DNA of 64,000 nucleotides from Collybia mongolica (taxonomy: Eukaryota; Basidiomycota; Agaricomycetes; Agaricales; Clitocybaceae): NCBI GenBank assembly GCA_013420905.1, contig JAAXNY010000009.1, forward strand, positions 3,286,001-3,350,000. Reading direction: 5' to 3'. This document shows positions 737 to 8,850 of this stretch, piece by piece. The stretch's first letter is position 1. The number at the start of each line of letters is the position of its first letter. The position numbers and the translations under genes were made by a program. The notes under the pieces were generated by a model, which saw nothing but the letters and a program-made list of their open reading frames with translations, was not told the origin of the DNA and searched no databases.

Positions 737-3700
737 ATGTCTACAGTTCAGTCAGGTCAATCCTCCCAGGATACATATGCGATGGAAGAGAGACGCGCAG
801 AATTAGAAAAGAGGGCAGGGCGCTTCCGGATCCTTATCGTAGGAAGGGCCAATGCCGGGAAAACAACGATCCTGAAGAAGATCTGCGACACAACTGAAGA
901 GCCCGAGATTTACAATATTCATGGAAAAAAGGTATTTCAATGGTATTGGGTTTGATCAATATTTATAATCGGCTGAAAATCCGTTCAGATCGATACCTCA
1001 AACATTGAGCCATCTAAGCTTGTAAGTTGGTTATTGTATAGCATGCTACTGTTACTTATCACTATCTAGCGTGGAATTCACAACATCGAAAACGAGATGA
1101 TCTTTCGAAGCAACCCTGGATTTATTTTCCATGATTCGCGCGGGTTCGAAGCTGGTGGCATTGATGAGTTGGAGAAAGTGAAAATGTTTGTATCTGAACA
1201 TTCGAAGAAAGAGAAATTCATGGACCAGGTCCATGTTATCTGGTATGTTTATTAAACAAAATCTTTATTAGATTTGATTCATTACATTTTGAAGGTACTG
1301 CATTCCCATGAATGACTCCCGACCAGTTACACATGCAGAGGTTCAGTTCTTCTCTAAATCTGGTACTGGAAAAGGTATGGTCAGAAGGTGTACACGAACA
1401 TATATTAATATCATGTCTAGTTCCAGTCATTGTTGTATTTACCAAGTGTGAGGCACTGGAGCTTAAAGCAATCGAGATTCTGCAGGAAGAGAAGAACCTT
1501 ACTTATGGAGAAGCAGTGAATGGAGCAGCAGAGTATGCCAAAGAACATTTCTGGAACACTCACCTGGATTTGGAGGAGTATAAATACAAACCAGCAGGGC
1601 ATGTCTACTTGCAAGGTACATAAAAATTGATCTGAAACATGTTTAAAGAAATTTAACTTACATTTTAGAACTGGACAAACCTAGTGTGAACTGTGAACAT
1701 CTGGTAGAATGCACTGCTACTGTGCTTGATGGTAATAGACTCCAGGCAATATTTGTCTCCACCCAGCAAAATAGCCTGGAGTTGCAAATTAAATATTCTG
1801 CAAGGTATAGTATGATGGAGCAGGCTGAACACAAGTTCACTGACAATGCTTCTAACAGAGACATTGTTCAAATGTGTTTTGATGGAAGAACCAAAACCTG
1901 GGGCACACAACAAGATAAAGAAGCATTCATGTATGCTATGTTAAAGAAAATAATGGGTTATTTCCCATATTGGGTAGTAAGTGGTTACTTTGTTGTTTTC
2001 TACTGCCATATATAACTGGATTTACAGAGTGAAATGGCTTATGATAAACTGATTGTGCAAGGGTGACTTAAACAATATTGATAGATTGTAAGTCATTTGT
2101 TTGATAACTCTATTTCAAGTCATTACTTTATGGGATAAAAACTTCAGGTTGTAAGTGCTATTTTGTACTATATACAAACCATACCTCCTACTTTGAGCTG
2201 CTGTTAAATGGGCTTTCAGAAAGTAAGTAGCCATACATCTGCATCCATGTTGGTGCTGATGCCATGTCCGACATTGTTCAATCTCCCTCCAGCGGGTAAG
2301 TGGCTGTGCATCCATGCATCCATGTTGGTGCTCATTCCATATCTGACATTGTTCAATTTTCCTCCAGATGGTAAGTGACTGTGCATTGATGCATCCACAT
2401 TGGTGCTCATTCCATGTCTGATATCATTTCAATCTCCTTCCAGCAGGTAAGTGGCTGTGCATCCATGCCTCCACATTGGTGCTCATTCCATGTCTGATAT
2501 CATTTCAATCTCCTTCCAGCAGGTAAGTGGCTGTGCATCCATGCCTCCATGTTGGTGCTCATTCCATGTCTGATATTGTTCAATTTCCCTCCAGCGGGTA
2601 AGTGGCTGTGCATCCATGCATCCACATTGGTGCTTATTCCATGTCTGGCATTGTTCAATCTCCCTCCAGCGGGTAAGTGGCTGTGCATCCATGCATCCAC
2701 ATTGGTGCTTATTCCATATCTGACATTGTTCAATTTTCCTCCAGATGGTAAGTGGCTGTGCATTGATGCATCTGTATTGGTGCTCATTCCATGTCTGACA
2801 TTGTTCAATGTCCCTCCAGGAGGTAAGTGGCTGTGCATCCATGCCTCCATGTCTGATATTGTTCAATCTCCCTCCAGTTGGTAAGTGGCTGTGCATCCAT
2901 GCATCCATGTTGGTGCTCATTCCATGTCTGATATCAATCAATCTCCCTCCAGCAGGTAAGTGGCTGTGCATTGATGCATCTGTGTTGGTGCTGATTCCAT
3001 GTCTGACATTGTTCAATTTCCCTCCAGGAGGTAAGTGGCTGTGCATTGATGCATTTGCATTGGTGCTGATGCCATGTCTGACATTGTTCAATGTCCCTCC
3101 AGGCAGTAAGTGGCTGTGCATCCATGCCTCCATGTCTGATATTGTTCAATCTCCCTCCAGTTGGTAAGTGGCTGTGCATCCATGCATCCATGTTGGTGCT
3201 CATTCCATGTCTGATATCATTCAATCTCCTTCCAGCGGGTAAGTGGCTGTGCATCCATGCCTCCATGTTGGTGCTCATTCCATGTCTGATATTGTTCAAT
3301 TTCCCTCCAGCGGGTAAGTGGCTGTGCATCCATGCATCCACATTGGTGCTTATTCCATGTCTGGCATTGTTCAAATCTCCCTCCAGGAGGTAAGTGGGTG
3401 TGCATTGATGCATCTGTGTTGGTGCTGATGCCATGTCTGACATTGTTCAATTTCCCTCCAGTGGGTAAGTGGGTGTGCATTGATGCATCTGTATTGGTGC
3501 TGATTCCATATCTGACATTGTTCAAATCTCCCTCCAGTGGGTAAGTGGCTGTGCATCCATGCATCCACACTGGTGCTGATTCCATACCTGTCATTGTTCA
3601 ATCTCCCTCCAGGAGGTCAAGTCTTTTGCTCTTTTACCTTCAGGTTTCTTCTCATTATTGGCTTCAGGTTGTAAGTCTCCCCTCAATTCAATATTCCAAT

Positions 3701-5509
3701 ACATTGGTTTATTTTTCTGTATGTATAATGATCTTGCCCTTAGGAAGTGAGTTCTATGTGTTTCTCTTTTCCTCTATCTGTTCTGACAGAGGCTTTTAAT
3801 TGCTCTTTTTTTTTTTAGTATGTATGTTTATATCCTTGTCCGACCTTACATTCATTCTTCTTACCACCTTTGTAGGATGTAAGCATATATTCCTCTCTGC
3901 AACTATATTTGATTTTTCCTGTATTCTTTCTAGCATGTCAGTATTTGTTGTCTTTTTCTAAAAATCACCTTTCAATAACCATTTCTCTAACCTTCTGCAG
4001 GAAGTAAGTCCATCTTCTTCTAGTCGTATCTTCATATTAATTCCCTCATACTTATCTCCAGAATGTAAGTACTTGTTCTTTTCCACTTCTAATTCTTATT
4101 TCACTTATATACTATGCAATCAAGATGCCCTCCAGAGATGTAAGCAACTTGGCTTTTCAGGATTTGCATTACATCTCTTAAATGACATCTCCTCTAGGTT
4201 GTATGTACCTATATCATATATGTTCAGACCTTGGTCTCACACAATCTGTTCTTGCTTTGAACTTGCCATCAGATTGTAAGTCCCCTTTATTATGAAGTGT
4301 GTTCCTTCTTATCCACTCTTATATCATTTCATTGCTTTAGCAAGTGTGTACCTCAGTCTTATGTCTAGACTGCACCTCATTCCATCTATAATGGTTCAAT
4401 GTCCCTCAGAAGGTGCAAATATGCTTTTTCCTATATTCTTTCAAGCTTATCATTGAACATCCTGCCTGGACATTCAGGATGTAAGCAGTTGTACTTGTCA
4501 TATTCTTAAAGCTCAACTGATTAGTTGTAATGATTATTGAATTTCTTCTAGGTTGTAAGTACCTGCCATCCTCTGTTTGTCCATTTTGCACTGAATACTC
4601 CTCTCTAGTTTGTAAGTGGCTCTACTACTACTTCAGCACCAATGTTTGATTTTTGTGCATAGAATGTAAATATTTTATTACATTTCTGCTTTAAAGATGA
4701 TTTATATTTGATCTCACATAAAAACAGAAAGTAAAGGTTTGCACACCTTCCAAATCCATCTACTTATAATATTTTCCCCCCAGTTTGTAAGCAATTGCCT
4801 CTCCTGTTTTTCCAGCTGCTACCATAATTGATAATCAAAATCAGACTGTAAGTCTTTGATTATAATACATTTCTTCTTCTGTCTTGATTCATATCCCTCA
4901 ATGATTAATACTTACATACTCTATGGATCTAGGCCACTGATGAGGAATCTATTACATTGGCTATCATCCAACTGGTAATGCTTTTTTTCTTTCAAATTTT
5001 ACTTAAATAATGATGACTACCCTCCAACCTTCAAGGCAGACACCCATGCACATCTTTCCAGAAACAATCAAACTATCCAACTTGGCAGTGGTGAGAAGTT
5101 ACTGTTACATCTGGTATTCTTGGAAAAATGATTGATGAAGATGGCTAGCCCTTATTATTATTGCTGAGCACTTGTTCTTTGTCTGGAGAAAAGCAAAAAA
5201 TATCTCTGCTAATGGGATCCTCTCCACAATTCTTCTATACCAGCAATCTGCCAATCAGTCCCTGGTTACTGGCAAGGTCCAGGAAGCTTTTGCTACATAC
5301 TTGGGTTTGATTTCTAAAGTTGATGGGTCAACTTGGAAGCAAATTACAGGTGCTCTGGTCAAAAGGTGTGGTGCATGGTCTGTAAATCAAAAAAAAAATT
5401 GACCTGGCCTCATATTTGCAGGGGGGCCCACAAAAAGGCCATAGAACAAGCCAAGGATACTCTCCAGAAGAAGATATATGCCATCATTTTGGGAAATCGG
5501 TTGGGTTAG
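737..5509 (+). CDS. P-loop GTPase with single-codon micro-exon array
   Basis: A spliced GTP-binding protein of the TRAFAC/MMR_HSR1-like kind that is abundant in Agaricomycetes. Predicted ordinary exons are 737-931, 989-1021, 1070-1242, 1295-1374, 1421-1615, 1669-1976 and 2028-2054. All introns are GT-AG and phases agree. Motifs: P-loop GRANAGKT at residues 36-43, switch-II DSRG at 98-101, base-recognition TKCE at 168-171. About forty micro-exons then follow (2148-4847), nearly all of exactly 3 nt. Ordinary exons resume at 4933-4974, 5036-5113, 5169-5365 and 5422-5509 (TAG). Every exon joins in phase if the single 4-nt micro-exon at 4136 is skipped, giving about 510 residues. The micro-exon part is rich in R, Q, E, L and W and looks helical. 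The donor after exon 7 (GTGCAA at 2055) and the acceptor at 5168 (GAG) are weak. The G domain is certain; the exact 3' model is inferred. The alternative is a gene ending at the TGA at 2064-2066, followed by non-coding repeats. Confidence 0.72.
2055..4932 (+). repeat. intron/micro-exon array (about 40 introns in series)
   Basis: From 2088 to 4932 the sequence parses as consecutive introns of 51-85 nt. Each starts GT (mostly GTAAGT/GTAAGC) and ends in a pyrimidine tract plus AG, and successive introns are separated by three nucleotides. Micro-exon positions include 2148, 2220, 2293, 2368, 2444, 2520, 2595, 2670, 2745, 2820, 2878, 2953, 3028, 3103, 3161, 3236, 3311, 3387, 3462, 3538, 3613, 3668, 3744, 3819, 3876, 3934, 4001, 4062, then 4136 (4 nt), 4198, 4273, 4341, 4410, 4478, 4552, 4609, 4663, 4728, 4784 and 4845. 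An extra ATT at 2085-2087 is possible, but the intron before it would be only 30 nt. Spacing is kept in the second half, where the introns no longer resemble each other. Confidence 0.8.
2223..3615 (+). repeat. 75-bp tandem repeat, each unit an intron plus one codon
   Basis: About 19 units of 75-76 bp (two shortened to 58 bp). Each starts GTAAGTGGCTGTGCAT and ends TTCAATCTCCCTCCAG followed by three variable bases. A branch-point-like CTGAC or CTGAT lies about 22 nt before the AG. The intron-like part is nearly invariant, while the final triplet varies (CGG, ATG, CAG, GAG, TTG, GCA, TGG). Long frames run through the repeat on both strands because it lacks stops in some phases; these are not genes. 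Confidence 0.9.
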
Positions 5510-6974
5510 TTTTTACAGATTATCTCTTTTGTATAATGGTTGAATTCAGCCTTTTTACATCAGACAAGACTGATTTTTGATCAGTGACTGAAAGAAATGA
5601 TCAACAAAGGCAGGCAGAAGTAAACAAAAGAAAGGTGAAATGAATAGGGAGGCTAGGTTTTGGTTAGATATGCAAAGAGATTTGTGGATATATATAATTC
5701 CATTGGAAGTGCACAGTGGTAGGAATAATAAAAAAGAAGCAGACTGTAGTGACCTAAAGAGATTGAGCTTGATACCACATAATATTGGTAGAGCCAACTT
5801 GGCACTATGTCAGAACAACTCCAGTGGTGAGATCAGGCATTATTATGTATGATCAGGCAGTTCCAGACAGGCTAGATTTTGGACCCTGATTAGGAGAGAG
5901 TTGTCTGATCAGGAAGGTCATAGCTAGGCAGTCCATTCCTGTTCGGGCTAGAAAACTCAGGGTTGCCCACAGTACAGCCGTCCGACCCTTAATGGAGACT
6001 ATCTCTATACTCATGAAGTTTTGATATGATACAGTGGATATGAAGATGGCAGAAGGCAAGGTAGATAGCATGGACATTAGTCCAGTGACTGGTGATGCTT
6101 TGCCACAAAGTAATGATGGGGATGGTTCCAAGATGTTTTGAAGTAGGTTGCATGTTCTCACATGCTCTGCTGGTATTGCAATACTCATGGGAAATATCAG
6201 TGACTCAGGCCTAGACCCACTCAGAGTTCCAGCAATGAAAATTAGATGTTTATATCAAAGTGTACACCTTGTAGGTTGACTAATTTACTATTGACCTCAT
6301 GTGATGCTGACATTATATTGGTGAATCTAGAGCCCTCATAATTCTCAAGTAATAATTCCATATAATTGATGGCTTCCGACATCAAACAGTATCAAGGATG
6401 AGAGGATGACCAATTTATGCCGTAACACTTCCAAGTGTATCCTCAGGGCTCTACAGTCCTCTCATCATGATTCATATAATTTTACTCCACTATTATGAAG
6501 GTGCTCAAGATCTTGAGAATTTTAGTGTGGAATCAGAGAGAAGGGGAACATGTAAACTCCAGAAGATACCTGATCAATCTATCATTTGCTATACACAAAT
6601 GAAGCAGTGATAAAATTGAATATATTGACCTGGCTAGCAATGACTGGGCCATATCAAACATTCCCAGAATTAGATGTGGGTTCTAAGGGTCTATGATGTG
6701 AGAAGGGATAGAGGAGAAGAATCAAGGTCAGAGGTCCATCATAACATAGGTGACATCAAAGGTGCGAGTCAAGGAAGAGCACTCTTCCTGACCCCTCTTG
6801 TGAGGCACACATGCTCTCAGGGTCTCCAAACCCCTATGGCCCACAGAACCAAGGAGTAATAGGGAAAAAGGGGGGAAGTAAAGAGGTGAAGTTCAATGTC
6901 ATTCATATGCAAAAATCCAAGAGAAGATTGAGATAATTGAGGGAGATGCAGATGTTCTAGAATGGAACTAAGTT
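5510..6974. other. intergenic region with decayed coding-like remnants
   Basis: No intact gene is visible. On the plus strand around 5850-6130 there are short stop-interrupted protein-like stretches that may be a relic gene, but I cannot name a family. The rest is AT-rich with no repeat or RNA gene that I recognise. Confidence 0.4.
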
Positions 6975-7248: not shown

Positions 7249-7879
7249 TATAAATTAGTGTTGCCGGAAGCTCGGCTCGAGCTGAACGAACCGGTGGGCT
7301 GGGCTGCCAATTTGGGCTGGCTGAGCTTGAAATTCAGGGCGGCTCACGTGGCTGGGCGGCTAAAAGCTTGGCAGCTGATGGGCGGCTGATGGGCGGCTTG
7401 AGCCAATGCTGTGAATCCGAATCAGGTAAGAAATCAAAGACAGCCTTATCTCAACATCCACGACTTTCCCCGGCCTCCAACAGACACCAGGACCCTCCTT
7501 GGGGGTATGAGAGTGTACTGGATCTCTCATTGCACCCCATTTGCCTCAAATGCTGAGTGGAGGGGTTGGCAAGTAGGTGAGTGGCCTATTAATTGATTAT
7601 CTTGACATATAACTGATAAGGGGATCCTAGGTTCAAAAGGTGCACCACGAGGTGTGCCTAGGAGCGGAGGAGACAGGAAAGAGGAGGATAGGAAGGGACG
7701 AGAGCAGCTGGAACTCTCGTCCATCTCTTTTCTCGTTTGCAGTGCACCTCAGGCGTCACTGCCATCGCGATCACCTTCCCACCACCTTCCTAACGTCTTC
7801 CTTCCATCCAGACAGTGTCCATGGTCCTCTAATGTCCCTTTGGATGGCCCAGTGAGTAGCTGTGAGCAGAATGGGAGCC

Positions 7880-8850
7880 CTGGCAGCTCTCGTTCCTCTT
7901 TTTTTGCCGTTTGCAGTGCAATTCCTGCCCCCTCACCTTCACCCTCACTCCACCCCATCCGTCGCCTCTTGTTTCTATCCAAACACCATCCCCAGTGACC
8001 CACCACTGTCTTGAATGCCCCAGCAAGCGGAACAAGAGCCCCAGCGGCTCTCGTTCCTCTGTTTTTATCTTTTGCAGCGCATTTACCGCCCCCTTGCCTT
8101 CACCCTCACTCCACCCCATCCATCGCCTCTCGGTTTGATCCAAACATCATCCATGGTGACCCACCACTGTCTTGGACACCTCAGCAAGCGGAACAAGAGC
8201 CCCAGCGGCTCTTGTTCCCCTGTTTTTCTCTTTTGCAGCACATTTCCCGCCCCCTCGCCTTCACCCTCACTTCACCCCATCCATCGCCTCTTGTTTCCAT
8301 CCAAACATCATCCACAGTGACCCACTGCCGTCTTGGATGCCTCAGCAAGCGGAACGAGAGCCCCAGCAGCTCTTGTTCCCCTGTTTTTCTCTTTTGCAGC
8401 ACATTTCCTGCCCCCTCGCCTTCACCCTCACTCCACCCCATCTGTCGCCTCTTGTTTCCATCCAAACATCATCCACAGTGACCCACCGCCGTCTTGGACG
8501 CCTCAGCAAGCGGAACGAGAACCCCAGCGGCTCTCATTCCTCCGTTTTTATCTTTTGCAGCGCATTTCCCGCCCCCTCACCTTCACCCTCACTCCACCCC
8601 ATCCGTTGCCTCTTGTTTCCATCCAAACACCATCCACGGTGACCCACCACCATCTTGGATGCCTCAGCAAGCGGAACAAGAGCCCCAGCAGCTCTCGTTC
8701 ACCCGTTTTTCTCATTTGGAGTGCATTTCATGCCCCATCACCCTCACCCTCACTCACCCTCTTCCATCCCCTCTCATTTCCATCCAAACATGATCCACGT
8801 CGCCCCACTGCCGTCCTGAATGCCCTGCGTGAGTGGAACAAGGGTTCTAG
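7880..8850 (+). repeat. 161-bp subterminal tandem repeat, about six units
   Basis: The phrase CCCCAGCGGCTCT recurs at about 8040, 8200, 8361, 8522 and 8683, giving a 160-161 bp period, with degenerate first and last copies. All three forward frames stay open, which yields long serine/proline/histidine-rich translations that are not genes. It lies inside the left end of the hAT element. Confidence 0.9.

Follow-up and report, generated by a model that had tools for sequence, protein, structure and literature searches.

Predicted arrays of single-codon exons in a GTPase gene family of the mushroom Collybia mongolica

What does a gene encode when its splice sites follow one another with only three nucleotides in between? 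This question is raised by a locus of Collybia mongolica (Basidiomycota) within a stretch of 64,000 nt, referred to as the window (assembly GCA_013420905.1, contig JAAXNY010000009.1, positions 3,286,001 to 3,350,000 of the forward strand; coordinates below are counted from its first base). The + strand carries a GTPase gene, with exons at 737-1976 followed by a codon array and then by C-terminal exons from 4933. Within 2085-4847, 40 triplets of the form AG|NNN|GT are spaced by introns of 51-85 nt, the sole exception to the 3-nt spacing being a 4-nt unit (AGAT, 4136-4139). Judged from the sequence, these roughly 40 triplets are very likely single-codon exons, and the joined codons very likely form a hypervariable segment between the GTPase domain and the C-terminal region. 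We consider it probable that the reading holds as a whole, namely that single-codon exons form a variable segment, that this segment is tandemly duplicated and under selection, and, as its least certain part, that it serves as a recognition surface.

The exact 3-nt spacing of about 40 units had been pointed out in the initial annotation and was confirmed. The nearest AG to the 33 GTRAGY donors of the array is 3 nt upstream in 26 cases, adjacent in six and 2 nt upstream in one; an adjacent AG is expected from a codon ending in AG. In a comparison region (window 7000-64000), the nearest AG is 3 nt upstream for 1 of 46 GTRAGY donors and adjacent for five. The longest chain of YAG|NNN|GT units has 29 members when the array is taken as a whole and 11 when its second half is taken alone, while dinucleotide shuffles gave a maximum of 3, both for the whole array (300 shuffles) and for the second half (500 shuffles). 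Chance is thus ruled out as the source of the spacing. Inclusion of the 4-nt exon would break the frame, whereas skipping it, which results in a 133-nt intron (4065-4197), keeps the frame; it is probably skipped in splicing.

The window array is one of many. The genome (46 Mb; G000 in locus names) was searched for three GTAAGT-led or three GTGAGT-led donors with AG|NNN|GT between them. The GTAAGT-led pattern gave 33 matches at 7 loci (backwards control: 0 forward, 24 reverse), the GTGAGT-led pattern 226 (backwards control: 0 and 0). Further clusters, among the matches listed for the GTGAGT-led pattern and for an array intron, are found at C2:62-64 kb, C13:326-328 kb, C5:4022 kb, C13:2306-2308 kb and C13:2226 kb. 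An exon of the GTPase family as query resulted in 25 genomic matches, a longer query in 45 partial ones. Sixteen arrays, including that of the window, were modelled, these being the ones with both entry and exit exons found, so that the same layout occurs in at least 15 paralogs. For three array loci outside these 16, C6:386300 (on both strands) and C13:2341069, no entry or no exit exon was found in the DNA examined. No array was found within about 1.2 kb downstream of the GTPase loci C13:2227315, C13:2313180, C5:4381729, C16:850384 and C16:912300. At G000:C6:386300-392817, two array-bearing genes of the family are located on opposite strands, a few kilobases apart. The array-like matches at C13:326-328 kb and C5:4022064 have no GTPase exon among the matches listed nearby; they are possibly degenerate copies or belong to another gene family.

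In the exon-path model applied to the 16 arrays, exon length was free (1-12 nt, no preference), while entry and exit were fixed by hand beforehand; the entry positions used for C9c and C18 are off by one to three bases. The best paths comprise 463 exons, 439 of them 3 nt long, 11 of 1 nt and 13 of other lengths. The window path has 40 exons (38 of 3 nt, one of 1 nt and one of 4 nt); it omits exons 3613-3615 and 4410-4412, which precede the two weak donors of the second half. The entry exons share the ending ...FPxxV, at times slightly altered, and are in phase 0. The exit exon is also in phase 0 and has 42 nt in 15 of the 16 arrays (45 nt in C16a; in C18, 39 nt would be compatible as well). 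Array length ranges from 20 to 40 codons. In the C16a array (L039, about 3055-3070), the acceptor before an AGA codon is CTG where other units have CAG, and this unit is probably skipped in frame.

The initial annotation had further proposed that the single-codon exons are in phase with the exons on both sides. This stands for all 16 modelled arrays, including the window array, whose flanking exons are both in phase 0. The 441 joined codons (counted with the 40 curated window triplets in place of the window's 40-exon path) contain no stop, with 23.7 expected from position-specific composition (P about 3e-11), while a shift by two bases results in 111 stops. The predicted series of the window array includes IVKRMQQRRMELQEALRREWWEVEYDHEN and VIQKDVFNKFT. 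A common start, [TAGN]W[DN]LE with one codon per exon, occurs in 9 of 18 arrays with known start; these nine are from close paralogs. Of the 441 codons, 89% have T or A as their third base and a single one has C; in C16b this base is the same throughout, in the other arrays less so.

The position at which the array begins had to be revised. The initial annotation had placed its start at 2055, but the first triplet is at 2085. With a first intron of 108 nt (1977-2084), a 30-nt intron is no longer required, and the TGA at 2064 disappears into the first intron. A candidate exon at 2028-2054 (SEMAYDKLI) was rejected as probably intronic, the 108-nt intron being in line with other arrays: in 11 of the 12 other arrays with the inner motif the first intron has 107-118 nt (224 nt in the remaining one). 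This motif, YAG|AGT, is found 51-55 nt past the donor of the first intron in 12 of the 16 arrays. In these 12, the entry codon (GTG or GTA) together with AGT would give a perfect GTGAGT or GTAAGT donor; in the window, removal of an inner intron (1977-2027) would rebuild GTAAGT from 1974-1976 and 2028-2030. As far as sequence can tell, this is the arrangement of a stwintron, in which removal of the inner intron rebuilds an outer donor that is split after its third base. Ten of the 11 exons of 1 nt in the best paths correspond to the A of this first intron, which breaks the frame when taken as an exon and keeps it when taken as part of a nested twin intron. The entry intron of the C18 array (G000:C18:70105 + about 2030) apparently has a GC donor (GCAAGT) rather than GT.

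How the arrays evolve can be followed because each codon sits between intron sequences, so that protein change becomes measurable against a nearby clock, codon by codon. Pairs of units were compared within arrays; pairs from one array are not independent. When flanking introns differ by less than 2%, the codon is shared in 77% of 48 pairs. At 2-4% intron divergence, codons differ in 86% of 49 pairs (4 arrays), and codon positions 1 and 2 have changed by 61% versus 3.1% in the introns, that is, about 20 times faster. Below 6% intron divergence, none of 127 differing codon pairs is synonymous. Among all columns of the unit, codon position 1 is one of the three most variable in each of the eight arrays tested; position 2 is one of the five most variable in seven of them and sixteenth in the remaining one. 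The paralogs C10b and C13b have DNA that is 91-93% identical on both sides of the array, yet peptide identity is 24%. Codon blocks recur in series (DDDRRL in C16b, LEYHD in C13b), and the youngest units of other arrays are tandem block duplicates, usually with common codons. The claim in the initial annotation that recent tandem copying cannot explain the array is not supported by this comparison. Codons change far faster than introns, and the diverged second half of the window array can therefore consist of old copies. The pattern is explained if blocks of codon plus intron are duplicated in tandem and their codons are then diversified by selection.

With codons spliced in one at a time, a variable segment would arise between the GTPase domain and the C-terminal region. 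Unequal exchange between intron repeats would add or remove codon-plus-intron units, with the frame left intact, and selection would subsequently diversify the codon. The least certain step is that the segment may act as a rapidly evolving surface for recognition in an immune-type GTPase.

The initial annotation had proposed looking for the joined peptide in related proteins. A hypervariable peptide does occur at the array position in transcript-like proteins resembling those of Suillus. A search with part of the homolog P0038 retrieved 13 proteins, four from Suillus genomes and nine from Joint Genome Institute (JGI) contigs. Of the latter, eight, including P0038, are from contigs of 1.1-1.7 kb and read through the array position in one frame, and because of this they probably come from transcripts; the ninth, P0130, ends just past this position. 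The part in which the eight proteins vary is about 16-40 residues long, and in many cases W, D, N or Y are frequent in it. In P0123 and P0124 the sequences on either side of it are nearly identical and the peptides themselves different; ahead of the variable part, the two also differ by three extra residues (SVS), which resemble the use of an alternative acceptor. In the variable part, P0127 and P0034 differ solely by an insertion of 17 residues in P0127, ASRLIPHYLCLLIIIYQ, between two codons. Its ends, back-translated from the protein, fit GCAAGT...CAG, so that the insertion looks like a 51-nt GC-AG intron that was not removed. In Suillus cothurnatus, the genome model P0068 has 99% identity to P0038 over 299 residues and ends at the array position. 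The other three Suillus genome models pass it, with residues that match the transcript-like proteins poorly. Among homologs of the window protein, 105 genome-annotated proteins (from 120 listed of 478 matches) were inspected: the motif xFPx occurs in 59, of which 46 end at most 45 residues past it and 13 do not. That so many annotated GTPases of the family end early in mushrooms may be due to the array. When the C-terminal half of the paralog C5b served as a protein query, no match at E <= 0.01 appeared among 260 candidates.

The joined window protein exceeds the Pfam gathering score of MMR_HSR1 (25.9 bits, cut-off 21.9), and P0038 is slightly below it (21.3 bits). Other Pfam matches are to weaker GTPase/NTPase families, with one weak STAND NTPase model (E 0.13); NACHT and ankyrin are absent among the 12 families matched at E <= 1, as is the family of immunity-related GTPases (IRG). 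The closest relatives among the matches listed are Collybia nuda G-domain proteins (51-63% identity over the matched part). The region after the array is likely helical. An AlphaFold2 model of P0038 (mean predicted local distance difference test score, pLDDT, 82) consists of a G domain and helices; residues 299-316, the variable stretch, score below 50. Structurally, this model comes nearest to immunity-related GTPases, followed closely in Foldseek by dynamin-like proteins; for the G domain alone, septins are the neighbours. The IRG proteins Irga6, GM4951 and Irgb10 resemble the predicted structure in that a helical domain comes after the G domain, but the match is remote (8-12% identity, root-mean-square deviation 9-10). 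To our knowledge, no microexon array has been described in IRG genes. Hypervariability, family expansion and the remote structural match suggest a possible recognition role of the variable segment.

Other explanations of the array have to be weighed. Alternative splicing could be the main source of diversity if different subsets of codon exons were joined in each mRNA, as reported for the NACHT-ANK genes of Tuber melanosporum (PMC4986451, PMC10197012, PMC3689799, PMC9815663, as far as excerpts of these accounts go); nearly all units have 3 nt, hence any subset would be in frame. However, the genomic codons themselves are hypervariable between paralogs, and P0034 and P0127, the only close transcript-like pair examined, have the same codon series apart from the insertion, and we regard this explanation as rather unlikely. 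Introner-like spread, with introns copied singly into codon boundaries of a pre-existing exon, would make the codons older than the introns. It agrees with introns being far more alike than codons within an array, and in one C5b pair the codons differ when the introns do so only once. The youngest units usually do share the codon, as tandem duplicates would, and codon blocks recur in series, both of which make such a spread improbable. One array intron has at least 160 genomic matches; those listed form tandem clusters in or close to GTPase loci, with two exceptions (C13:326-328 kb and C13:2359567) to which no gene is tied.

The alternation of strong donors and acceptors could also act as a series of ratchet points for recursive splicing, in which case the array would be one long non-coding intron removed stepwise, with the 3-nt gaps as landing sites. 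The absence of any stop from the 441 triplets, the phase 0 of the exons on either side, the common WDLE codons and the peptide carried by Suillus-like proteins at the array position argue against this, and it seems barely credible. For an unconstrained, drifting linker one may cite the low-confidence prediction of the stretch in P0038 and the spread in array length. Drift alone, however, yields neither an approximately 20-fold codon excess over adjacent introns nor the complete lack of synonymous differences, and we give it little credence. Some points do weigh against our preferred reading of selected, tandemly duplicated codon exons. When the joined codons are shifted by one base, only 2 stops appear, so that composition contributes to their absence; the phase of the array is fixed by the flanking exons. 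In a possible variant of the duplication scheme, gene conversion would homogenise the introns while selection keeps the codons apart, and such homogenisation would weaken the codon-versus-intron argument, to the benefit of a drifting linker.

Codon-sized microexon arrays as such are already known. The initial annotation knew of no described gene with such an array, but one family is on record: in the nank (NACHT-ANK) NLR genes of Tuber melanosporum, microexons of 3 bp are reported by the dozen (Iotti et al. 2012, as cited in excerpts of PMC4986451, PMC10197012, PMC3689799, PMC9815663). In both fungi, tens of codon-sized exons occur in an expanded NTPase gene family, in C. mongolica by prediction (439 of the 463 exons). 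The Tuber genes are from Ascomycota and code for NACHT-ANK proteins, whereas those described here are from Basidiomycota and code for an MMR_HSR1-type GTPase, the window protein having no NACHT and ankyrin architecture. Alternative splicing is the stated diversifier in Tuber, and the excerpts of the citing accounts do not address codon-versus-intron evolution. According to the part of PMC2873952 available, hnwd (het-d/e/r) WD-repeat genes of Podospora anserina diversify by duplication, deletion and new unit variants; they also represent a repeat array in a diversifying NTPase gene family, but the unit is a WD repeat there and a single codon plus intron here. Ultra-short plant microexons, e.g. 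the 1-nt exons of APC11 and VPS55 (PMC8831610, in part), are likewise very short, have strong GTRAGT donors and are missed by annotation; in contrast, they are described as single conserved microexons and not as arrays of variable codons. Fungal NLR receptors with their variable repeats would be a counterpart of the proposed recognition surface, a comparison that belongs to the least certain part of our reading.

When the literature was searched for microexon arrays of fungi and for gene families related to them, the papers listed included only Tuber NACHT-ANK and none on an Agaricomycete GTPase array. The novelty appears to lie in the GTPase family and the phylum, in how many arrays one genome contains and in the measured codon-versus-intron contrast. 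If our reading is correct, codon-sized exon arrays exist in a second fungal phylum and in an unrelated protein family, with more than 400 predicted single-codon exons in one genome, and 40 consecutive 3-nt exons would challenge models of how the spliceosome handles exons. A more far-reaching view, which we put forward tentatively and would not call probable, is that mushroom fungi have ancient and widespread immune-type GTPases with a recognition segment of one codon per exon, a generator of diversity made of codon cassettes and hidden by annotation. Introns might then be recombination handles by which single amino acids are added, dropped or shuffled without frameshift; selection would rewrite each codon and leave its introns alone, and annotation pipelines would have hidden the generator by ending genes at the edge of the array.

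Table 1. Predicted features of the GTPase gene in the window
Feature	Position	Strand	Basis
Coding exon 1, P-loop GRANAGKT	737..931	+	Gene model; homology to Collybia nuda G-domain proteins
Coding exon 2	989..1021	+	Gene model
Coding exon 3, FHDSRGFEAGG	1070..1242	+	Gene model
Coding exon 4	1295..1374	+	Gene model
Coding exon 5, VVFTKCEAL	1421..1615	+	Gene model
Entry exon, end ...YFPYWV, phase 0	1669..1976	+	Gene model; similar entry exons in paralogs
First intron, candidate nested (twin) intron	1977..2084	+	GTR+AGT rebuilt in 12/16 arrays
22 predicted single-codon exons, introns mostly related and tandemly repeated, IVKRMQQRRMELQEALRREWWE	2085..3615	+	Splice-site pattern
18 predicted single-codon exons, diverged introns, VEYDHEN and VIQKDVFNKFT, plus AGAT 4136-4139	3668..4847	+	Splice-site pattern
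Exit exon, 42 nt, phase 0, ATDEESITLAIIQL	4933..4974	+	Gene model; 42 nt in 15/16 models
Coding exon	5036..5090	+	Gene model
Coding exon, ALIIIAEHLFFVW...	5149..5365	+	Gene model
Coding exon	5422..5504	+	Gene model
Likely last exon, DKTDF, stop TGA 5578-5580	5564..5580	+	Read from sequence

Downstream of the GTPase gene, the window contains a tandem repeat with a unit of 161 bp (5.9 copies, 7875-8824).

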